This document shows positions 1 to 26,728 of a stretch of DNA of 64,000 nt, piece by piece. Under the pieces are notes generated by a model. It saw only the letters and a program-made list of their open reading frames with translations, was not told the origin of the DNA and did not search any database. The stretch is from Acidobacteria bacterium RIFCSPLOWO2_12_FULL_66_21 (GTDB lineage Bacteria; Acidobacteriota; Vicinamibacteria; Vicinamibacterales; 2-12-FULL-66-21). Position 1 is the first letter of the stretch. The number at the start of each line of letters is the position of its first letter. The stretch spans positions 1 to 64,000 of the forward strand of contig MELC01000077.1 in assembly GCA_001767455.1 (NCBI GenBank), in the 5' to 3' direction. A program made the translations under genes and the position numbers.

Positions 1-2
1 AG

Positions 3-125
3 ATCTTCACGCGCTTCGTCGCGACGACGTGGGAGAACCCGACGGTCAGTACCGAGGTCTTGATCTATCCGCCGCAGGCGGATTTAGTCCAACAGCGCGC
101 TGCACCCGACGGCCGCTGGTACTGA
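3..125 (+). CDS. 3' end of a cassette-borne hypothetical gene (5' end outside window)
   Basis: Forty sense codons are open from the left edge to a TGA at 123-125. The readable C-terminus contains TRFVATTWENPTVSTE and IYPPQADLV and is not a family I recognise. The frame runs into the attC site beginning at 87 and stops in its central loop, as cassette genes often do. The other two frames over the same stretch give less protein-like composition. No function can be assigned from 40 residues. Confidence 0.45.
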   Translation: MFTRFVATTWENPTVSTEVLIYPPQADLVQQRAAPDGRWY

Positions 126-162
126 CGATGAGCGGCCGCGGGTGAGCGCGAGGTCGTTAGGC
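87..162 (+). other. attC recombination site (integron cassette), 76 bp
   Basis: Outer core sites are GTCCAAC (87-93) and GTTAGGC (156-162), which match the RYYYAAC and GTTRRRY consensus exactly. Between them GCGCTGCACCCGACGGCCGC can fold back on GCGGCCGCGGGTGAGCGC with the bulged, imperfect pairing typical of attC. It lies directly between two + strand genes, in the same orientation as the five sites downstream. Confidence 0.85.
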
Positions 163-189
163 CGATCCCAAGATCACGAGGACAGGATC

Positions 190-660
190 ATGCGGAAGGG
201 CCGCCAGCCAGATGCACAACCGATCGCTGCTGCGCAGCGAGGCTACAACACGAACCTCGCGTCGGAGTTCTACGTGCTGTCGATGCTGTATCGACTGGGC
301 TTCGATGTGAATCTGACGCTCGGCAACAAGAAATCAGTGGACATTGCAGTTGTGCTGGGCCCGGGGCGTGCCATCACCGTTGACGTCAAGGCCGTCGCAG
401 GGAAGATGGATTGGCTTATGGGCAGCTCGCCTGACCAGCCGAAGCTGAATCACTACGTGGTCCTTGTTTCGTACGAAGGCCGATTCGGCGATGCTCAGCA
501 CGCACCGCGTTGTTGGGTGCTGCGCCACGGCGAAGTCCTGCCGCTGGTGAAAATGGCAAGAGGCAAGGGCGGCATGCGGTATCTCTCGCGCAAAGAAGTG
601 CTGAACGGTTTTGGTTCTCGCGAGGGCGCTTGGCAACTTCTGGCCGAGGCACTGGCCTGA
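190..660 (+). CDS. cassette protein with PD-(D/E)XK nuclease-like core
   Basis: 156 residues from the ATG at 190, which has GAGGAC a few bases upstream. A GTG at 142 in the same frame lies inside the attC and is unlikely to be used. The pattern GFDVNLTLGNKKSVDIAVV followed by ITVDVKAVAGK gives a D...D-x-K arrangement (SVDIAV then VDVKA) like the beta-hairpin of PD-(D/E)XK restriction-type nucleases, here with D-V-K as the second half-motif. No other domain is visible and there is no signal peptide. It is the first complete gene of the array, and the degenerate hairpin at 657-765 probably marks its former cassette boundary. The fold assignment is inference; the open frame and start are clear. 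Confidence 0.6.
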   Translation: MRKGRQPDAQPIAAAQRGYNTNLASEFYVLSMLYRLGFDVNLTLGNKKSVDIAVVLGPGRAITVDVKAVAGKMDWLMGSSPDQPKLNHYVVLVSYEGRFGDAQHAPRCWVLRHGEVLPLVKMARGKGGMRYLSRKEVLNGFGSREGAWQLLAEALA

Positions 661-765
661 TCAGCGGCTGCACCCGATCGTGGCAGTCCGTCGCCACGTC
701 GAATCTCCCGACGGCGGCAGGCGGCACTACGTCTTCATGCAGCCGTCGGCCAGAATTGTTGGATG
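657..765 (+). other. decayed attC-like hairpin
   Basis: CGGCTGCA (664-671) pairs exactly with TGCAGCCG (738-745). The flanks resemble the neighbouring attC sites, but the outer cores have drifted (GCCTGATC instead of GCCTAAC; right edge GTCGGCC, or GTTGGAT at 758-764). It sits exactly where a cassette boundary is expected between two unrelated cassette genes. Read as an inactivated attC. Confidence 0.4.
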
Positions 766-793
766 TCACGGGGCATTCTGGTAGGGTGGGTCT

Positions 794-1030
794 GTGAAGA
801 CCACGGCGTACTTCCAGGCGATGCGGGTGCGCCCCGATCGAGCCGTGATCCAAGACGAATGGATTGATCGGGCGATTCGGGAGCCCATTCACGAGCACAC
901 TCAGGCCGATGGCCGAATTCGGCGTTGGGTTCGAGTTCCCGAGGCCGGTGACCGAGTGCTGCGCGTGATTCTCCTGCCAGATGGTGAAACAGTTCACAAC
1001 GCGTTCTTTGACCGGGGGTTTGCGCCATGA
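794..1030 (+). CDS. DUF4258-like small protein, first gene of a two-gene cassette
   Basis: 78 residues from a GTG start preceded by GTAGGG. Features seen are a basic and aromatic N-terminus (MKTTAYFQAMRVRPDRA), WIDRAIREP, DGRIRRWV and a C-terminal LRVILLPDGETVHNAFFDR. This layout is what I associate with DUF4258-type proteins encoded immediately upstream of DUF2283 proteins. Its stop codon overlaps the start of the next gene (ATGA), so the two are translationally coupled. The pairing and cassette location are typical of small toxin-antitoxin modules, and the DUF4258-like protein would be the candidate toxin. That role is inference. Confidence 0.65.
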   Translation: MKTTAYFQAMRVRPDRAVIQDEWIDRAIREPIHEHTQADGRIRRWVRVPEAGDRVLRVILLPDGETVHNAFFDRGFAP

Positions 1031-1224
1031 AGATCCGGTACTTCGCTGAAACAGACACCCTCCATATCGAGTTCCGCAATGTCCCCGTTTCTGAAACGCG
1101 CGACTTGGACGAGAACACGCTGCTCGATATGGATGCGGAGGGGAATATCTCAGCCATCACCGTGGAGCACGCGTCCGAACGGACGGGCGTTCCGGAGTTC
1201 TCCTACGAACAAGTGACGGCCTAA
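1027..1224 (+). CDS. DUF2283 family protein
   Basis: 65 residues starting at an ATG that overlaps the preceding stop by four bases. MKIRYFAETDTLHIEFRN, the ETRDLDENTLLDMDAEGNI stretch and a closing ITVEHASERTG are the DUF2283 pattern, a small beta-rich fold. The TAA stop lies inside the left core (GCCTAAC) of the attC at 1219, the usual packing of a cassette gene against its recombination site. As partner of the DUF4258-like protein it is the likely antitoxin or neutraliser, by analogy only. Confidence 0.8.
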   Translation: MKIRYFAETDTLHIEFRNVPVSETRDLDENTLLDMDAEGNISAITVEHASERTGVPEFSYEQVTA

Positions 1225-1290
1225 CAGCGCATGCACCAGACGGCGCCGACGAAAACGTGAGGCGCCGCTGGTGATGCGCAGCCGTTAGGC
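1219..1290 (+). other. attC recombination site, 72 bp
   Basis: Cores GCCTAAC (1219-1225) and GTTAGGC (1284-1290) match consensus. The arms GCGCATGCACCAGACGGCGC and GCGCCGCTGGTGATGCGC are imperfect complements with single-base bulges. It shares arm sequence with the sites at 87 and 3334, as expected for one array. Confidence 0.9.
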
Positions 1291-1306
1291 CGTCGAAAGG
1301 GAAGCC

Positions 1307-1645
1307 ATGGAGACGTACAGAACTGGACGGGACGGGAAACGCATCAAAGTGCCAGCGGGGTACACGTCCAGGGAAGGACGTGACGGCCGGATCGTTCCCG
1401 TACCCTCTGGGGCAACCTCGCGCGAAGGCAGAGATGGTCGGGTTGTGGCGATCCCCGCCGGCTGGACGTCGCAGGAGGGACGTGATAAACGCGTCTGCGC
1501 TATTCCTCCAGGTGCAACTTCACGACAAGGTCGAGACGGTCGAGTCGTTGCCGTTCCACATGGCTACACGGCACGAGAGGGCGGCGACGGACGCGTGCTT
1601 GCGATACCGCCAGAATTGCAACCGAGGGCCCGACAGGTCGCTTGA
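1307..1645 (+). CDS. tandem 17-residue repeat protein (cassette gene, unknown function)
   Basis: 112 residues. The ATG at 1307 follows AAAGGGAAGCC, 16 bases after the attC. Five full units and one partial unit of 17 residues follow the pattern R-D-G-R-x-V-x-x-P-x-G-x-T-S-R-E-G (units begin near residues 8, 25, 42, 59, 76 and 93). The DNA repeat is 51 bp with diverged third positions, so the repetition is maintained at protein level. No signal peptide or membrane segment is present and it is strongly basic. The regular V-x-x-P-x-G spacing suggests short beta strands and turns, perhaps a small solenoid or a nucleic-acid-binding surface. The IS66 element begins 20 bases after its stop. I do not recognise the family. 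Confidence 0.7.
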   Translation: METYRTGRDGKRIKVPAGYTSREGRDGRIVPVPSGATSREGRDGRVVAIPAGWTSQEGRDKRVCAIPPGATSRQGRDGRVVAVPHGYTAREGGDGRVLAIPPELQPRARQVA

Positions 1646-1665
1646 AGCTGATCCCTCGCGGATAG

Positions 1666-3222
1666 GTAACAGTTCAGGGGGTGAGCCGCTTCGGCAGCAG
1701 TGACGCAACGACTGGCCGACGGCGGTGACAACGAATGGCGGCGGTCAGATACGCGAGCACGTGGATCTGGTGAACCTGGCAGGTGCGCGTCACCGTGAGC
1801 AACCGCGCGACGGCGAGTTCGCCCGTGGTGCTCCGATTGCCGAACATGATCTTGCGCCACTGAACGGCCGTGCGCAGTGCCCGTTCCGCGACATTGTTGG
1901 TTGGTTCGACGCCCTCCTCGTGGACGAACGTGAAAAAGTGGGGATGATGCACGAACAACGCGCGCGCGAGATTCGACACGTCATCGTCCGCGGCATTGAC
2001 GTACCGTTCCGCCAGCGCGAAAAACTGCTTCTCGATGGGCAGTACTTTCGCGATCAACTGGGCGCGGGTGAGCGGTGCCCCACGCGCATGCGGGTCGCCC
2101 CGAAAGCGATACCACAACCGAAACAGTTGCCGCTGCAGCGTGAGGGCCTCCCGACAGAAGCGTTGCGCCGAAGCCGTGGTGGCGAGGTCCTGCGCGCTCA
2201 ACAGATTGCGTCGGAAGTGCGACCAGCAGAATTGCCGGAGGCCCGCCGCATACGTGAGGTACGTCGGCAAGCGGTCGCTGCCCAGGATCCCGGCGAACGT
2301 TGCCCCGAGCAGGCCGCGCAACACGTCCGCGCCGCGCGACGTGGCAATCGTATAGAAGATGAACGTGGGCGCCACCAAGGTCCAGAGCCAGCGTTTGGCG
2401 CCGTTGGTCCGATGGCCCGTCTCGTCGCCGTTGAGCACGCGTTGCTGCGGCAGCGCGTGCTGCAGCTCCTGATAGGGCGCCGCGACCGCCGCACTCGCTT
2501 CTTCCCACGCATGTTGCGTGCTGCCCAGGCTCATCGGGATCTGCAGCGCGCCTTCGAGCAGGCGCTGGACCACCAGGCGCGGCAACCGGCACACCACCGT
2601 GAGATACGCAATCAAGGCCGTGAGTTGGGGGCCAAACTGGCCGGCGAGTTCGTGGGGCAGCGGCGCCTGCGTCGTGGTCCCACACGCGGGACACTGCCGC
2701 CGATGACACCGATATTCCGTGACGTACGCCTCGATCGGCGGCAACTCCGTGACTTGATGGCGCCGCGGGTCGCCGACGTCGTCACGCGCGTGCAACCGGT
2801 GCGCGCACTGACGACACGCGTCGGGCACGAGGTCGACGATCACATTCACGCGCTCGGCGGGCACGAGCGCTCGATGGTGCCCCGGATGCCCCGGCTGACC
2901 GCCGGGCCTGCGCCGACTCTTCGTGCGGCGACCGCGAAGCCGCTGTCGGCCCGCAAGGCCATCGGATGACGGGGGCTTCGACGTCGTCGTCGAGTTCTGC
3001 TGCCGCAGCGCGAGCTGGCGTTTCAAATCGTCGATCTGTTTGGCTTGCTCGTCCACCTGTTGGCGGAGGCGCTCATTCTCCTGTCGCAGACGCTCAAGCT
3101 CTCGTGCCTGCGCATTGTCCGAACGACCAGGGCCGGTCGATCGGCGCCGCCTCCGCTGCGGTTTCATCGACCGCAGGGTACCGAATTCCGTCAGAAAGTA
3201 CAAGAGGGACGTGAACTGTTAC
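1666..3222. mobile_element. IS66-family insertion sequence (tnpC only)
   Basis: The element is bounded by an 11-bp perfect terminal inverted repeat, GTAACAGTTCA at 1666-1676 and its complement TGAACTGTTAC at 3212-3222. It holds one large minus-strand transposase and no tnpA or tnpB, like the short IS66 subgroup. IS66 elements normally make 8-bp target duplications. The flanks here are GCGGATAG on the left and GTGGCTCG on the right, which do not match, so either a neighbouring deletion followed insertion or the true ends lie slightly outside the repeats. It sits inside a cassette. Confidence 0.85.
1674..3167 (-). CDS. tnpC: IS66-family transposase (TnpC type)
   Basis: 497 residues from the ATG at 3167; a TTG twelve codons upstream is possible but poorer. 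In order: a basic tail, a leucine-zipper-like coiled coil (ELERLRQENERLRQQVDE), the IS66 linker with SSDG and RRRPGGQPGH, a zinc-finger-like C-x2-C...C-x2-C stretch (CRQCAH and CPACGTT), then the DDE domain with NGDETGHR (first Asp), GSDRLPTY (second Asp) and EPTNNVAERALR (Glu). All catalytic residues are present and the frame is intact, so it could be active. It acts on the DNA ends at 1666 and 3222. Confidence 0.92.
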   Translation of the reverse strand: MKPQRRRRRSTGPGRSDNAQARELERLRQENERLRQQVDEQAKQIDDLKRQLALRQQNSTTTSKPPSSDGLAGRQRLRGRRTKSRRRPGGQPGHPGHHRALVPAERVNVIVDLVPDACRQCAHRLHARDDVGDPRRHQVTELPPIEAYVTEYRCHRRQCPACGTTTQAPLPHELAGQFGPQLTALIAYLTVVCRLPRLVVQRLLEGALQIPMSLGSTQHAWEEASAAVAAPYQELQHALPQQRVLNGDETGHRTNGAKRWLWTLVAPTFIFYTIATSRGADVLRGLLGATFAGILGSDRLPTYLTYAAGLRQFCWSHFRRNLLSAQDLATTASAQRFCREALTLQRQLFRLWYRFRGDPHARGAPLTRAQLIAKVLPIEKQFFALAERYVNAADDDVSNLARALFVHHPHFFTFVHEEGVEPTNNVAERALRTAVQWRKIMFGNRSTTGELAVARLLTVTRTCQVHQIHVLAYLTAAIRCHRRRPVVASLLPKRLTP

Positions 3223-3309
3223 GTGGCTCGACTACTCAAGAATGCCGGCGCGGAGTCAGATGCCGCGTTGTTAAAGCGTCTTGAAGATACGCTCTCGCGA
3301 TTGCGATGA
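3223..3309 (+). pseudogene. 3' remnant of a cassette gene cut by the IS66 insertion
   Basis: Directly right of the IS end an open frame reads VARLLKNAGAESDAALLKRLEDTLSRLR and stops at TGA 3307-3309, 24 bases before the next attC. It has no start of its own except a GTG at the IS boundary. The matching 5' part is not on the left side of the IS, where the repeat-protein gene already ends at 1645, so a deletion probably removed it. Family unknown; predicted helical. Confidence 0.4.
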
Positions 3310-3333
3310 CATCTGCATTGACTTGATCGAGCG

Positions 3334-3404
3334 GCCCAACACGGCATGCACCCGACGGCGCCGATGGCGTGTTTCGCGCCGCGGGTGATGCCGAGGCGTT
3401 GGAC
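3334..3404 (+). other. attC recombination site, 71 bp
   Basis: Cores GCCCAAC (3334-3340) and GTTGGAC (3398-3404) match RYYYAAC/GTTRRRY. The arms CGGCATGCACCCGACGGCGC and GCGCCGCGGGTGATGCCG pair imperfectly. Confidence 0.9.
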
Positions 3405-3442
3405 TGCGAGAACCATATTCACGATTGCTAGGAGGTTCAATC

Positions 3443-4765
3443 ATGAGCGCAGTTACTGTCTGCACCGTAAAGCAACTGCCACTGGAGCTGCAGGTTCCGG
3501 CGAGCGAGAGGGCACTTCAGCTGGACGAGCGCAACGGCCGGGTGATCCGCGCGCTCCAGCGCATGTCCGCTGAGGCGGAGATCCCCAAAGAACAGCTCGC
3601 AATACTCGTCGGCAAGTTTTGGGGCGGGAGCGTTCGCCTTACAGTGACCTTCTTAGACAATCCTCCTCAGGACCTGAGGTCGAGGATTCTCGCTCACATG
3701 AACGCCTGGCAGGTCTGTGCCGACGTTACCTTCGTGGAAACGGCTGGTACTGCCCAGGTGCGGGTCGCCCGGCAGGGTGGGCAAGACGGTGGATACTGGT
3801 CGTACCTAGGTACCGACATCCTTCAGATTGCGGCAGACCGCCCGACACTCAATCTCGATGGTTTTACTATGAACACTGCGGAAAGCGAATACATCCGTGT
3901 AGTTCGACACGAGACTGGTCACACTCTGGGATTCCCACATGAACATCTCCGGCAAGAGATCGTCGACCGGATAGACCGTGATAAAGCAATCGACTTCTAT
4001 CGGCAAATGTACGGTTGGCCAGCTGACAAGACGATTAGAAACGTCCTTACTGCTCTCGATGAATCCGCGCTGATCTCCACTGCGCATGCGGACCCTACGT
4101 CGATCATGTGCTACTGGTTGCCGGCCGAAATCATGAGAGACGGTATCGCCGTCCCCGGTGGTTCAGACATCGATACCGCCGATATGGAGTTCGCCAGGTC
4201 CGTCTATCCGGTGGGCCACGACAGATTCGCCGTCAGGCGTGGCAATCAGATTATCTTTCAACAGCGCATGAGTGATTTCGCGGGCCAAGTTGTTGGCTAC
4301 GGCAACGGCAGCTCCGAGGATCAGTACCTCGTGGGGGACTGGACCGGCGACGGGAAGGACAAGCTGGCCGTGCGGCGAGGCAACCAGATCATCTATCAGA
4401 GGAACATCACCGACGCAGCCGGCACTGCCGTTGGTTACGGCAACGGCAACTCCGAGGACCAGTACCTCGTGGGGGACTGGACCGGCGACGGGAAGGACAA
4501 ACTGGCCGTGCGGCGAGACAATCAGATCATCTATCAGAGGAACATCACCGACGCAGCCGGCACTGCCGTTGGTTACGGCAACGGTAACTCCGAAGACCAG
4601 TACCTGGTGGGCGACTGGACCGGCGATGGAAAGGATAAGCTCGCTGTTCGTCGTGGCAGCGTACTGATCTTCCAGCGCAGGCTGTCGGATTCAAAAGGAA
4701 TCGAGCATGGCTTCGGGAATGGCAACTCTGAAGATCAATACCTTGCCGGGGCCTTCCACATGTGA
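3443..4765 (+). CDS. astacin-like zinc metallopeptidase with C-terminal FG-GAP-like repeats (cassette gene)
   Basis: 440 residues from the ATG at 3443, behind AGGAGG at 3431-3436. Residues about 60-260 form a metzincin-type peptidase with the zinc motif H156-E157-x2-H160-x2-G-x2-H166-E167 (RHETGHTLGFPHEH) and a Met-turn-like SIMCYW near residue 222. From about residue 258 four 46-residue units follow with the pattern D-x-L-A-V-R-R-x-N-Q-I-I-x-Q and V-G-D-W-T-G-D-G-K-D; the D-W-T-G-D-G-K-D loops look like calcium-binding FG-GAP/VCBS blades. The 138-bp DNA units at about 4331, 4469 and 4607 are nearly identical. There is no signal peptide, which is odd for this architecture. Its base composition is visibly less GC-rich than the host genes, which fits transfer. 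Confidence 0.85.
   Translation: MSAVTVCTVKQLPLELQVPASERALQLDERNGRVIRALQRMSAEAEIPKEQLAILVGKFWGGSVRLTVTFLDNPPQDLRSRILAHMNAWQVCADVTFVETAGTAQVRVARQGGQDGGYWSYLGTDILQIAADRPTLNLDGFTMNTAESEYIRVVRHETGHTLGFPHEHLRQEIVDRIDRDKAIDFYRQMYGWPADKTIRNVLTALDESALISTAHADPTSIMCYWLPAEIMRDGIAVPGGSDIDTADMEFARSVYPVGHDRFAVRRGNQIIFQQRMSDFAGQVVGYGNGSSEDQYLVGDWTGDGKDKLAVRRGNQIIYQRNITDAAGTAVGYGNGNSEDQYLVGDWTGDGKDKLAVRRDNQIIYQRNITDAAGTAVGYGNGNSEDQYLVGDWTGDGKDKLAVRRGSVLIFQRRLSDSKGIEHGFGNGNSEDQYLAGAFHM
4331..4744 (+). repeat. three 138-bp tandem DNA repeats inside the metallopeptidase gene
   Basis: The unit starting GTGGGGGACTGGACCGGC recurs at 4331, 4469 and 4607 (GTGGGCGACTGGACCGGC in the last), exactly 138 bp apart, with the first two almost identical. 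A more diverged unit precedes them. Recent duplication or homogenisation inside the coding sequence is implied. Confidence 0.85.
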
Positions 4766-4789
4766 CGTGAGGTCAATTACGCAGGCTCC

Positions 4790-5108
4790 TAAGAAACTGT
4801 TGTCCCGTCGGCCACTTCACCGGTCGTGAGATCGAGGAGCGCAAAGCCTAGATTCTCAGCACGTTGGCGAAGGCGGCGGAGGACGTGCGTCCGGTGCTGC
4901 GCGTCGTACGCGTCGGCACCCGGGTCGCGATAAACGAGTCCGTCCTTCAGGGTGCGGTACACCAGAATCGCGAGTTGGCGCGCAGTGGCCGTGACGGCCT
5001 TGGCTTGGCCCGCGCGGAACGCGAGGCGGCGGCATGCGGATTGATGTGGTCGAGGACGGAAGGCGAGACGCGGGGCTTGGGTGCGTGACGACGGCGTTGG
5101 CGTTTCAT
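4790..5108 (-). pseudogene. internally deleted IS110-family transposase
   Basis: On the minus strand an ATG at 5108, preceded by GAGGAGCCTCCG, opens MKRQRRRHAPKPRVSPSVLD then HINPHAA. This is the N-terminus style of IS110 transposases just before their A-G-I-D-V-G motif. Instead of the DEDD domain the sequence jumps, after a frame change near 5033, to a typical IS110 C-terminus: RRLAFRAGQAKAVTATAR, QLAILVYRTLKDGLVYRDPG, then HVLRRLRQRAENLGFALLD, ending with TAG at 4790-4792. The whole catalytic core (some hundreds of residues) is missing, leaving a short non-autonomous remnant with both ends. It separates the metallopeptidase from the next attC. Confidence 0.7.
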
Positions 5109-5357
5109 CGGAGGCTCCTCTACACGTTGCGGGACGCCTCCAGGAGCAGGGATGCGGATGAGGGGCAATCTCCTAAACGGGATCACGCCGGTGAGGGCGT
5201 GTCACCAGTGACGATGCCGCGAATCCCCGGGCCACGCTAACACACGGGCTCACAGCACCAGTGGCGGCTCGGCCTCGGCTCCTGGAGGTCTCGTGATGAT
5301 ACGCGCGACTGAGCACCCAGTTTCTCGCGTGACGAATCGTGATCAGATCGCGTGGGC
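5109..5357. other. gene-free stretch: IS110 left flank and cassette spacer
   Basis: The part nearest 5108 is the upstream end of the IS110 remnant (GAGATTGCCCCTCATCCGC on the minus strand). No convincing gene was found up to the attC at 5358. A short frame beginning GTGATGATACGC at 5293 follows GGAGG but runs through the attC without stopping, so I do not call it. Confidence 0.4.
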
Positions 5358-5428
5358 CGCTAACAGGCGAATGGAGCCGCCGCGCCGGCAAACGGGGACG
5401 GCGCGCGGCTCATTCGCGAGCGTTATGC
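5358..5428 (+). other. attC recombination site, 71 bp
   Basis: Cores CGCTAAC (5358-5364) and GTTATGC (5422-5428), each with one off-consensus base. The arms AGGCGAATGGAGCCGCCGCG and CGCGCGGCTCATTCGCGAGC are imperfect complements. The arm sequence (AATGGAGCCG...CGGCTCATT) is a second sub-family shared with the sites at 6225 and 7365. Confidence 0.85.
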
Positions 5429-5666
5429 CGCTCTACTATGAGATTCCGGAACAAACGGGTGAAAGTCGGGGCGAACCTCTGGAATCTCCGTCTCTCGCCA
5501 CCAGGCCGGCCGCGGGCAGGGCGGTGGCTTCTTCTCGACTCGGCGCGAGTGGCTCGGGACCCACGACCTCGAGGTCCGAATTCGGCCGGATGGCGGAGTC
5601 CGGCGACAGTGGCCCCACCAGTGTCCAGCCGAGACGAATGGCGGTATTCTGGTTGGTGACGCCGGG
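5429..5666 (+). other. cassette leader with no confidently callable gene
   Basis: Two + strand frames are open here. One starts at the ATG at 5438 (MRFRNKRVKVGANLW, 73 codons, ending 5659). The other starts at the ATG at 5425, inside the attC right core (MPLYYEIPEQTGESR, ending 5670). A minus-strand frame also overlaps. None matches a family I know and none has a good ribosome-binding site. The first, being basic and immediately after the attC, is the best candidate for a small cassette gene. Confidence 0.3.
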
Positions 5667-5960
5667 ATGAAGACCATGCCGAAACCGATTGCCGTGAAGC
5701 CTTTGGCAGATTTCCGAATCTGGCTCCGGTACGACGATGGGGTCGAGGGCGAAGTCGATCTGTCAGATCTGGTAGGCCGAGGCGTCTTCCAGGCATGGGA
5801 CGACTCAGATGTTTTCGCCGCGGTCCGGCTGGGTTCGCACGGTGCCGTCGAGTGGGGATCCGAGATCGATCTCTGCCCTGACGCGCTGTACTTGCGTCTG
5901 ACAGGGAAGGCGCCGGAGGATCTGTTTCCGACGCTGAAGTCCATCCCCGCTGATGCCTGA
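5667..5960 (+). CDS. DUF2442 family protein
   Basis: 97 residues from the ATG at 5667; a second in-frame ATG is at 5676. PLADFRIWLRYDDGVEGEVD, LSDLVGRGVF, then VEWGSEIDLCPDALYLRL are the DUF2442 hallmarks, a small alpha/beta domain. The last codons overlap the start of the DUF4160 gene by eight bases, so the pair is co-translated. DUF2442/DUF4160 pairs are regarded as toxin-antitoxin-like and are frequent in cassette arrays. Which member is toxic cannot be read from the sequence. Confidence 0.85.
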   Translation: MKTMPKPIAVKPLADFRIWLRYDDGVEGEVDLSDLVGRGVFQAWDDSDVFAAVRLGSHGAVEWGSEIDLCPDALYLRLTGKAPEDLFPTLKSIPADA

Positions 5961-6213
5961 AATCTCCCGTTTCTACGGCATCGTGATCAAGATGTACTTC
6001 GCGGATCACGCGCCGCCACATTTTCACGCCGAATATGCCGAGTACGAGGCGCGCATCGCCATCGAAAGCCTCGCGCTGCTCTCCGGCGAATTGCCGCCGC
6101 GAGCGATGGGCCTTGTCGCTGAGTGGGCAACGCTGCATCGGGCGGAGCTTCGCTCGGTTTGGGGCCAGGCGAGACGATTCGAGCCGCTCGGCCGCATCGA
6201 GCCTCTGCCCTGA
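5953..6213 (+). CDS. DUF4160 family protein
   Basis: 86 residues. MPEISRFYGIVIKMYFADH followed by PPHFHAEYAEYEARIAIE is the diagnostic DUF4160 N-terminus (I-x-M-Y-x2-D-H-x-P-P-H-F-H). The rest is a helical region ending RRFEPLGRIEPLP. The start ATG lies within the end of the DUF2442 gene, and the stop is 11 bases before the attC at 6225. It is the second half of a two-gene cassette, likely a toxin-antitoxin-like module. Confidence 0.88.
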   Translation: MPEISRFYGIVIKMYFADHAPPHFHAEYAEYEARIAIESLALLSGELPPRAMGLVAEWATLHRAELRSVWGQARRFEPLGRIEPLP

Positions 6214-6224
6214 CAGCGGCAGCG

Positions 6225-6295
6225 GCATAACAGCGCGATGGGAGCCGACGGCGGAACCTGACGGTGTGCGCCGCGGCTCATCGCGAACGTTGGGC
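6225..6295 (+). other. attC recombination site, 71 bp
   Basis: Cores GCATAAC (6225-6231, one mismatch) and GTTGGGC (6289-6295, consensus). The arms AGCGCGATGGGAGCCGACGG and GCCGCGGCTCATCGCG pair imperfectly. Confidence 0.88.
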
Positions 6296-6323
6296 GGACA
6301 GCGGGCAATCACTGGAGGGCGAT

Positions 6324-7345
6324 ATGGGTTCAGGCGTGAGTTCAGCCATCCTTCTGCTGCTAGCCACGTTGGCTGCCAGCCAGACGCGCTGGTGGCAGCA
6401 GCCGGCCGTCCTTGCGCCCGATACGACCGCCGTCGATGTACAGGAGGCACTCGAGTACAAGAAGGTCCCAGGCACGGTTCTGCGAATGGATGTGTACAGG
6501 CCCAAGCATGCGCGGTCTGAACTCCTGCCGGCGGTCGTGCTTGTGCACGGGGGCCCGATCCCGGCCGACCTTCCAGTCGAACCTCGCCGAATCGCTCAGT
6601 ACACTTCCCTCGGGAGGTTGGTCTCGTCCCGCGGTATCGCGGCTGTGACGTTCTCTCACCGCCTGACGAGCGCGGACGCCATTGACATGGCAGCGCACGA
6701 CGTGCGAGACGCGGTCAGTTTTGTGGTCGACCACGCCGCGCAGCTAGTGTCCCGTCCCAGTGGATCGTGGCATAAGTCCCGGGCGCGGCGCCCGGATCGC
6801 AAGGCGCGACGAGCGAGCATACAGGCCGTATGTGAGCGAGGAGCAACGCCGCGAGGCGGGATGCCCCGCCCGGGAATTGTGTCGCGAACCACTGGGACGG
6901 GACACTAGGCATCGACGCGAAGTGCCTCTGCATATGGGCAATCTCGGCTGGCGGAGTGGTCATCGCGCCAGCATTCCGTGAATTTGGTCAACGCGTGCGG
7001 TGTCTGGTCCTGTACTACACCCTACTGGATCCGGCTGTATTTCACAGCCTCGTGTCGCCCAAGACACCCCCAGGAGTAACGGCACCAGGCCTCACGGATC
7101 TACTGATCGGTGGAAATCTGAGCCTGCCAGCGACACTAATTGTGCGCGCGGGGCGAGACGACGCGAAGCTCAACGAGGGCCTCGATCGCTTCACGCAAGC
7201 GGCCATGCAACGTGGGGCAGACCTCGAACTGCACGCCTACGCCAGTGGCCGACACGGCTTCGATGTCTTTGACGATACGCCGCGTTCGCGAGAGCTGCTT
7301 CTGCGCACGTTGGACTTCGTTCGTGAAAGCACTGTCAGTCGCTGA
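6324..7345 (+). pseudogene. secreted alpha/beta hydrolase (dienelactone-hydrolase-like), interrupted by a MITE
   Basis: The ATG at 6324 opens a hydrophobic signal-like N-terminus (SSAILLLLATLAASQ), then TVLRMDVYRP and VVLVHGGPI, the oxyanion-hole HGG of alpha/beta hydrolases. The frame is broken at 6746 by a 159-bp element. If that element and one TA are removed the reading resumes exactly (AAQL then GIDAKCLCIWAISAGGVV). This supplies the nucleophile elbow (I-S-A-G-G), then a domain with IVRAGRDDAKLN (acid) and ASGRHGFDVF (His), ending at 7345. All catalytic residues of the ancestral enzyme are readable, so inactivation looks recent. The gene lies between attC sites, so it is a cassette. Confidence 0.85.
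6747..6905. mobile_element. 159-bp MITE with 17-bp perfect inverted repeats and TA duplication
   Basis: The element starts GTGTCCCGTCCCAGTGG at 6747 and ends CCACTGGGACGGGACAC at 6905, and is flanked by TA at 6745-6746 and 6906-6907. A TA target duplication and short terminal repeats point to mobilisation by an IS630/Tc1-mariner type transposase. The interior is GC-rich with several internal palindromes (GGGCGCGGCGCCC) and has no gene. No second copy was noticed in this window. Confidence 0.9.
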
Positions 7346-7364
7346 GCTTGGTGTCGGACATGCC

Positions 7365-7448
7365 GCCCAACAACCAAATGGAGCCGTCGCGCCCAATGGT
7401 CTGTGCGATCATGTCACCGCGGCGCGCGGCTCATTTGGCGCGTTCGGC
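7365..7448 (+). other. attC recombination site, 84 bp (last of the array)
   Basis: Left core GCCCAAC (7365-7371) is consensus; right core GTTCGGC (7442-7448) has one mismatch. The arms CAAATGGAGCCGTCGCGCC and GGCGCGCGGCTCATTTG pair. It has a longer central loop than the others. No further attC is visible after the next gene, so this is the last recognisable site. Confidence 0.8.
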
Positions 7449-7508
7449 GTCGTCAAGCATTGTCGGACGTAGGATCGAAACCAGCGGCCGGAGGCCAGGT
7501 TGAGCCTA

Positions 7509-8358
7509 TGGTAAAGCGACATCCGGTAGCGGCGTATTACGTGTTAGCGTACGCGTGCTCCTGGAGCATCGCGGTTCCTCTCGCTTTGCAGGCGCAGGGT
7601 GTTCTGACCGTGCGCGTGCCATTCGCACTGCACTACCTTTCAGGTTTGGGGCCGGCGATTGCCGCGCTGGTGATTACTCGACTTCTTCGCCGAGCCCGGC
7701 CGGGCGACATCCACGCCGATCAACCGAGCCGCTTGTGGCATTTCTTCTGGTGGCCGCTCGTCGGCTTTCTATCGCCCCTCCTGTTCTTCGCATTGGCCCA
7801 GCTCGCTGCTCGCGCCGCCGGCCGGTCAGCACCGACATGGACGGAGCTCGGGCAGGTGAACTTCCTTCCCGATCTCGGACTCTGGGCGTGGGCGCTGTGG
7901 TTGATCGCCAACGGGTGGGGCGAGGAACTCGGCGGCGCGGCTTTGCGCTCCCGCGCCTGCAACGGAAGCACTCCGCGTTGACCAGTAGCTTCTTGTTGAG
8001 CATCGCGTGGGCCGGCTGGCATCTTCCCGCGTTCTTTTACGTCCCCAGCTACGTTGCACTCGGTCTGTGGGTCTTGCCCGGCTTCTTTCTCGGTATTCTC
8101 GCGGGCACAATCGTGTTGACGTGGTTGTACAACAGCAGTCACGGCAGCGTACTCGCCGTGGTCCTCTGGCATGCGTCGTTCAACTTCGTGTCCGCGTCTC
8201 CGAATGCTGGTGGTTTTGTGGCGGCCGTCACGAGCACCCTGGTCATGGTGTGGGCGGTCGTCATTGTCTGGCGATATCGCGCCGCCACGCTCGCTGCCGC
8301 GCCGAAGCATGTCACGCCGACCGGCGTGCTCGCGGCCGACGACGCGCAGTTCGCCTGA
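7509..8358 (+). pseudogene. CPBP-family intramembrane (CAAX-type) protease with a one-base frameshift
   Basis: From the ATG at 7509 (MVKRHPVAAYYVLAYACSWS) the protein shows the membrane segments of the CPBP family, up to the catalytic GWGEELG near 7925. The expected continuation (W-R-G-F-A-L-P-R-L-Q) appears in the +2 frame as RRGFALPRLQRKHSALTSSF. Adding one T in CTCGGCGGCGCGGC (about 7927-7940) restores a single protein ending at 8358 with AWAGWHLPAFFY and the HASFNF motif. So the gene is either a recent pseudogene or carries a sequencing error. It follows the last attC and may be a terminal cassette whose own site is lost. Confidence 0.8.
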
Positions 8359-17922: not shown

Positions 17923-18267
17923 ATGACCGAAACCGCGGCCGGCTTCGCCACCAATCACCTGGCTGATTTGGTGGGCCCGGCCTGGCTGTACATCGTGTTT
18001 CGCGGCCTGGCTGAGCCCGGGAAGCGGAATCGGCTCGGGCGGTTTTTGGGCGCGACTCCCGAACGAGCCGCCACGATACTCTTCGTCGGAAGCTGTGCCA
18101 CGGAGATCGCGCAGATCTACTGGCCATCCGGCCTCTTTGCAGGCCGGTTCGATCGCCTCGATATTGCGGCCTTTGCGATCGGGCTCCTCCCGCTGTACTT
18201 GGTCGACAAGAAGCTCCAAGCCCCGTCGAAAGACACCGGCTCAGATTCGCGGGTCGGGGCCGCATGA
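17923..18267 (+). CDS. VanZ/DUF2809-like membrane protein, 5' end disturbed by the IS
   Basis: 114 residues from the ATG at 17923. HLADLVGPAWLYIVFRGLAE, ATILFVGSCATEIAQIYW and GRFDRLDIAAFAIGLLPLYL resemble DUF2809/VanZ-type proteins, including the E-x-x-Q motif. Only two or three membrane segments remain. If the IS and one CTTA are removed the frame continues upstream about 20 codons (SIGLTSY then LGAAVLNM) to a TAA at 16539, without a normal start codon. So the native N-terminus may have been longer. The stop codon lies in the attC-like hairpin at 18262. Confidence 0.55.
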   Translation: MTETAAGFATNHLADLVGPAWLYIVFRGLAEPGKRNRLGRFLGATPERAATILFVGSCATEIAQIYWPSGLFAGRFDRLDIAAFAIGLLPLYLVDKKLQAPSKDTGSDSRVGAA

Positions 18268-18320
18268 CACCGGCATGCAGCTGACGGCGCTTCGCGCCGC
18301 AGCTGATGTGGGCGGGAGCG
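18262..18320 (+). other. degenerate attC-like hairpin, 59 bp
   Basis: GCATGCAGCTGACGGCGC (from about 18273) folds on GCGCCGCAGCTGATGTGGGC, the same imperfect arm design as the array at 87-7448. The outer cores have decayed (GCATGAC on the left, GGGAGCG on the right). Its position, over the stop codon of the preceding gene and before an unrelated module, fits a former cassette junction. Confidence 0.45.
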
Positions 18321-26576: not shown

Positions 26577-26726
26577 AATTCCAAACTCCAAATTCCAAAC
26601 TCCAAAGGCACTCCAAACTCCAAAGGCACTCCCAAACTCCAAACTTGTTTGAGATTTGGAATTTACACGTTGGAATTTGGATTTTGGAGTGCCTTTGGAA
26701 TTTGGAATTTGGAATTTGGAGTTAGA
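26577..26726. repeat. inverted CCAAACT/AGTTTGG-type heptad arrays between convergent genes
   Basis: Left arm (26578-26643): CCAAACT, CCAAATT and CCAAAGGCACT words. Right arm (26650-26723): TTTGGAATTTGGA-type words, their complement. They are separated only by GTTTGAG. The arms can form a long AT-rich hairpin between the 3' ends of the peroxiredoxin (+) and truA (-), well placed to end transcription from both sides. Confidence 0.85.
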
Positions 26727-26728
26727 TT

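Follow-up and report, generated by a model that had tools for sequence, protein, structure and literature searches.

Does the left end of contig C77 in the genome of Acidobacteria bacterium RIFCSPLOWO2_12_FULL_66_21 hold an integron cassette array and, if so, where is its integrase? What is known from integron experiments comes mostly from Proteobacteria. The window analyzed here, that is, the whole stretch of 64,000 nucleotides, comprises bases 1-64000 of C77 (MELC01000077.1), one of 91 contigs in a genome of 6,475,179 bases. An initial annotation, made from the letters alone, had described an integron array in an acidobacterial genome, with six attC-type sites that have paired cores and arms and share one orientation within 7.4 kb. 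Both parts of this description held up, and the host is an acidobacterium of the same order as Luteitalea sp. TBR-22, although of another family; TBR-22 belongs to the class Vicinamibacteria (PMC8852301). We conclude that the locus is very probably a decaying, stranded array, a cluster of attC sites lacking an integrase (CALIN), that was left behind by reverse-type chromosomal integrons and whose integrase-near end lies beyond the contig.

The six sites are genuine attC sites. Scanning positions 1-7600 for paired core boxes and arms returned exactly six, whereas dinucleotide-preserving shuffles, 200 in all, returned 0.05 on average and never more than 1. They all lie on the + strand, in tandem and in the same direction, spaced 0.9-2.1 kb apart with one or more open reading frames (ORFs) between them. 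The core boxes (RYYYAAC/GTTRRRY) are perfect in three sites and deviate at one to three positions in the other three. A covariance model (R2) trained on 22 attC sites, all from other genomes, recovered all six at 51-70 bits (E 8e-16 to 6e-11) and always scored the + strand far better; its training alignment contains compensatory changes at 13 of 18 stem pairs. The bottom strand of each site folds into a single long hairpin in which bases are extrahelical at two places (fold z-scores -3.0 to -8.0), which is the outcome that the initial annotation had expected of a folding check. From left to right, the sites are attC1 at 87-162 (R'' GTCCAAC, R' GTTAGGC; 69.1 bits, E 1.2e-15, z -4.9), attC2 at 1219-1290 (69.8 bits, E 7.9e-16, z -8.0), attC3 at 3334-3404 (66.4 bits, E 5.8e-15, z -4.5), attC4 at 5358-5428 (51 bits, E 5.8e-11, z -4.1), attC5 at 6225-6295 (61 bits, E 1.5e-13, z -4.4) and attC6, which ends the array, at 7365-7448 (55.7 bits, E 3.5e-12, z -3.0). 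Apart from these, R2 finds little in the window except a truncated attC-like stem without proper core boxes at 18262-18313 on the + strand, about 11 kb past the array (33.1 bits, E 2.4e-6), and an Rfam search of the window gave no match at gathering scores.

A covariance model of ten training sites (R1) was dropped as sole proof of the window sites because six of its ten training sites come from the window, which makes it partly circular; R2 was built in its place. Across the host genome, R1 yields 61 attC matches when E values of up to 1 are admitted; in the regions examined, it marks about 65 distinct places. These lie on 24 contigs, and genome searches with the attC models were scored for the 150 best candidates only. 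Roughly half of these 24 contigs start or end inside an array on the integrase-near side and then run into the chromosome, and the arrays therefore represent more than ten separate loci. The initial annotation had staked its reading on model matches at four or more of the six positions and on repeats that are not scattered singly. The independent model R2 is significant at all six positions, and the repeats in the genome form mostly clusters between cassette-like genes, along with some singles.

The array has no integrase in view. As the initial annotation had noted, none is found on the given part of C77, and a TIGR02249 search of the 6.48-Mb host genome gave no match at the family cut-off, returning only pieces of the integron integrase gene (intI). 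When translated, some of these pieces contain frameshifts and internal deletions, and others are interrupted by inserted elements. At least two attC sites lie within 4 kb of each other with no intI nearby, on a contig that ends at base 1, which is the configuration that defines a CALIN. An intact intI adjoining the array, as in a complete integron, was found neither in the window nor, at the family cut-off, in the genome.

What kind of integron left such arrays behind is indicated by platforms elsewhere in the host genome. One array-bearing contig, C90, has an exact overlap of 66 bp with C41, on which the C-terminal part of intI lies; the intI remnant and the array are codirectional. The region 3' of intI in contig C5 is 88-89% alike to that of C90/C41, apart from a miniature inverted-repeat transposable element (MITE) in C5. 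This likeness stops at CGGTCTACTCCAAGACCAGTT (ending in ACCAGTT), beyond which the sequences continue with GGGC or AGTA and with different first cassettes. We therefore regard CGGTCTACTCCAAGACCAGTT as a putative attI, which in the host genome lies about 255-259 bp beyond the stop of intI once the MITE is left out of the count. Both C90/C41 and C5 display a reverse layout, with intI on the cassette strand and the putative attI at its 3' side. The attI-like pattern CGGTCTANTNCANGANNAGTT was found at 11 places, spread over 10 of the 162 genomes of the order, and the reversed pattern at none; in G013 and G026, whose integrases are intact, it lies 272 bp past the integrase. At nine of the 11 places, a codirectional attC follows at a distance of 0.4-1.2 kb, while contig ends truncate the remaining two. 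An intI or a remnant of it lies upstream of five, and no recognizable intI was found within about 1.5 kb of the remaining six (L205, L197, L198, L201, L203, L204).

The reverse layout is not peculiar to this host. Integrase matches at E up to 1e-60 are present in 58 of the order's 162 genomes, or in 43 of 100 when only good genomes are counted, and attC matches in 29 of the 40 genomes searched, the host included. Codirectional intI and attC occur in TBR-22, G026 (two loci), G012 and others; intact integrases with this layout are found across the order. A second integrase clade in the order is of the divergent, canonical type where an array is visible (G016:C55, G012:C34; loci L088, L089, L094). 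A wider comparison took in 80 integrases from many phyla; the ones followed by an attC on their own strand belong mainly to Acidobacteriota, Planctomycetota, Omnitrophota, Chlorobiota, Fibrobacterota and Myxococcota. In a tree of these 80, orientation needs 4-5 changes, compared with 13-15 for shuffled labels, a count that includes the proteobacterial L108 and L148, whose single downstream attC-like matches may be due to chance and make up part of the 4-5 changes. The broken integrase on the host's own C52 groups among the reverse-type ones. From the polarity of the array, the initial annotation had proposed that an integrase and attI lie left of position 1, or else that the array is a CALIN; the latter fits, and the former has to be amended, since an integrase of this order usually faces the cassette direction and has attI 3' of intI.

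Several integrase genes have been interrupted at nearly the same point. At least four integron-integrase genes (L092, G012:C35; L185, G116:C89; L186, G117:C156; L018 1-2100, own C41) and another tyrosine recombinase gene (L020 9300-12930, own C67) are broken right after the H-x-x-R-H codons, and the interrupting elements have TATGCCGAGTCC-type inverted ends. Beyond the break in C67, G012, G116 and G117 lie further tyrosine recombinases, as in recombinase-in-trio elements. In G003 and in the host's own C52, the break falls one codon earlier; the G003 insert (L093 394-2862, G003:C16) encodes a large serine recombinase, and in C52 (end of L016) the break is followed by the same end sequence. The types of the interrupting elements were assigned by reading translations. 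No description of an insertion target at H-x-x-R-H codons was found in a literature search that covered sources other than subscription literature.

These features suggest the following course of events. The window region would be the distal stretch of a cassette array that belonged to a chromosomal integron. An ancestral IntI, encoded on the cassette strand, may have bound the folded bottom-strand attC hairpins and inserted circular cassettes at attI, 255-272 bp past the 3' end of intI, with a GTT-type crossover. Exchange between attC sites could then have shuffled or excised cassettes. In the host genome, every intI copy found is broken, through an internal deletion, a frameshift or the insertion of an element at the active-site codons. 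The window array is therefore probably stranded and might be moved only by an integrase supplied in trans, as insertions of IS66 and MITE elements wear it down.

The chief alternative for the window itself is a complete and active integron, with an intact integrase and an attI immediately left of base 1 that dropped out during assembly. C77 begins inside a cassette, it shares its first ~93 bp with C82, and other array contigs likewise begin inside cassettes, so that repeats broke the assembly there; moreover, relatives of the host have intact integrases. The reading of a stranded array is also weakened by several features of the assembly. Since window base 1 is base 1 of C77, the array is cut at its left end, which lies outside the contig, and its own platform is not visible. 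In an assembly of 91 contigs, some unassembled repeat could hide an intact intI, given that contig breaks tend to fall at the integrase-near side of an array. Finally, the host assembly holds only two copies of the attI motif, at C5 and C90. On the other hand, the genome is rated 100% complete and yet all intI copies found in it are broken, and transposons have inserted into the cassettes of the window. We consider an active integron improbable here. Negligible in comparison is the possibility that the repeats are a family of hairpin elements, akin to repetitive extragenic palindromes (REPs) or MITEs and unrelated to integrons. Such hairpins do occur in many copies per genome and other MITEs are present, but the core boxes, the extrahelical bases, the single orientation per array, the ORFs between sites and the integron integrases nearby in relatives are at odds with it; we rejected this candidate because the independent model recovers the sites and because they are associated with IntI.

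A different question is how the arrays away from a platform arose. Rather than decayed platforms, they could have been seeded by integrase-catalyzed insertion of cassettes into chromosomal attG sites. Many attC loci lie away from any intI remnant, including in G014, a one-contig genome of the same genus as TBR-22 (at 977, 2077, 2211, 2453 and 6262 kb), and attG insertion has already been reported by Loot et al. 2024, as cited in the available text of PMC12444791 and PMC12772301. Against such seeding, the six attI-motif places without a recognizable intI within about 1.5 kb head arrays, and platform decay is therefore indicated at those loci. Seeding at attG is a serious contender that we nonetheless place on the doubtful side. 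Slightly less doubtful, and still tentative, is a broader proposal in which members of the order each have a scattered integron system, made up of several reverse platforms and numerous short arrays. Its integrases would have been silenced repeatedly by recombinase-in-trio-like and large-serine-recombinase elements at the H-x-x-R-H codons, leaving attI-headed arrays that rely on an integrase in trans.

The array in the window contains five complete cassettes, all on the + strand and bounded by crossover points inferred at G^TT, the established crossover position in attC. To their left, the 3' end of an ORF (3-125, +) belongs to the cut first cassette and runs into attC1; its first ~93 bp are identical to the start of C82. 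Identity ends at R'' in the C77/C82 pair as well as between C66 and the window, which suggested recombination at R''; we make no such claim, because the C66/window pair lies within a repeat that ends beside the attC site. Cassette 1 (157-1284) carries an ORF at 190-660 with no Pfam, NCBIfam or PADLOC match, a small ORF at 794-1030 without a family match in profile searches, and, overlapping the latter, a gene for a DUF2283 protein at 1027-1224 (PF10049, 1.2e-15), all on the + strand. Cassette 2 (1285-3398), delimited by its attC positions, has an ORF of internal repeats (1307-1645, +; judged by translation and profile search) and has been invaded by an IS66-type element. The transposase of this element (1674-3203, - strand; PF03050, 8.4e-30) lies between element ends at about 1666 and 3222 (GTAACAGTTCA/TGAACTGTTAC). 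Cassette 3 (3399-5422) encodes an astacin-like metallopeptidase with C-terminal repeats (3443-4765, +; PF01400, 1e-5), followed at 4786-5357 by a repeat common to contigs C90, C66 and C12 (75-100% over parts by blastn), which is probably the remnant of a mobile element.

Cassette 4 (5423-6289) holds a gene pair on the + strand that resembles the DhiA/DhiT toxin-antitoxin system, with both members under the curated cut-offs: a DUF2442, DhiA-like antitoxin at 5667-5960 (PF10387, 1.1e-12; NCBIfam DhiA, 3.9e-7) and a DUF4160, DhiT-like toxin at 5953-6213 (PF13711, 4.1e-20; NCBIfam DhiT, 1.7e-23, 83 bits against a cut-off of 100). Such a pair might help to stabilize the array. PADLOC returned no defense-system match for the cassette proteins. 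At another locus, the first cassette after the putative attI of C5 (L023 6123-7100) encodes, as judged by eye, an apparent PIN-type toxin and a small partner gene. Cassette 5 (6290-7442) bears an alpha/beta-hydrolase (BD-FAE-like) gene (PF20434, 6.6e-9) that a 165-bp MITE at 6744-6908 has split; the terminal inverted repeats of this element are perfect over 20 bp. The genome contains seven full-length copies of this MITE at 99-100%, seven at 86-87% and one partial copy at a contig end; one copy sits in the integron platform of C5. Outside the array, the window also contains a long inverted repeat of short CCAAACT/TTTGGA units at 26580-26727, similar to one on the host's own C23 (L021 6563-6667).

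Parts of this picture are already published, namely acidobacterial attC sites and reverse integrons. The initial annotation had considered such arrays little described in this kind of host, which needs correction, as an Acidobacteria-specific attC model was built by Ghaly et al. 2021 (PMC8352920). Their sites and ours are alike in being attC sites on acidobacterial chromosomes; in the available text of that study, we found nothing on the orientation of intI, on attI or on the decay of integrases. Reverse integrons have been described in Treponema denticola and other Treponema, together with gain and loss of the system within this group (PMC3607928, PMC4909258). The host phylum differs, and the genome studied here has several broken platforms, more than 60 attC sites on many contigs and no intact integrase that we could find. 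CALINs at several loci are known from Xanthomonas (PMC12444791), and CALINs have also been described in Archaea (PMC9668308). These are similar in that several loci of a genome hold attC arrays with no intI close by, whereas in the host's order intI remnants are interrupted at one codon and some arrays keep an attI-like head. The attI, the dispersed platforms and the intI-interrupting elements look like new details, and we did not find the putative attI, the order-wide reverse layout or the shared insertion point described in the literature.

Collectively, our analysis points to an order of Acidobacteriota with an integron integrase in at least a third of its genomes, many of them reverse-type, and with a candidate attI that is directly testable. 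Luteitalea sp. TBR-22, a cultivated isolate with a complete genome, has both an intact integrase and an array. The genome studied here would represent the other end of the process, in which arrays persist beyond the loss of their integrases while transposons erode them, and it is a place to test how cassette arrays come to be scattered along a chromosome.
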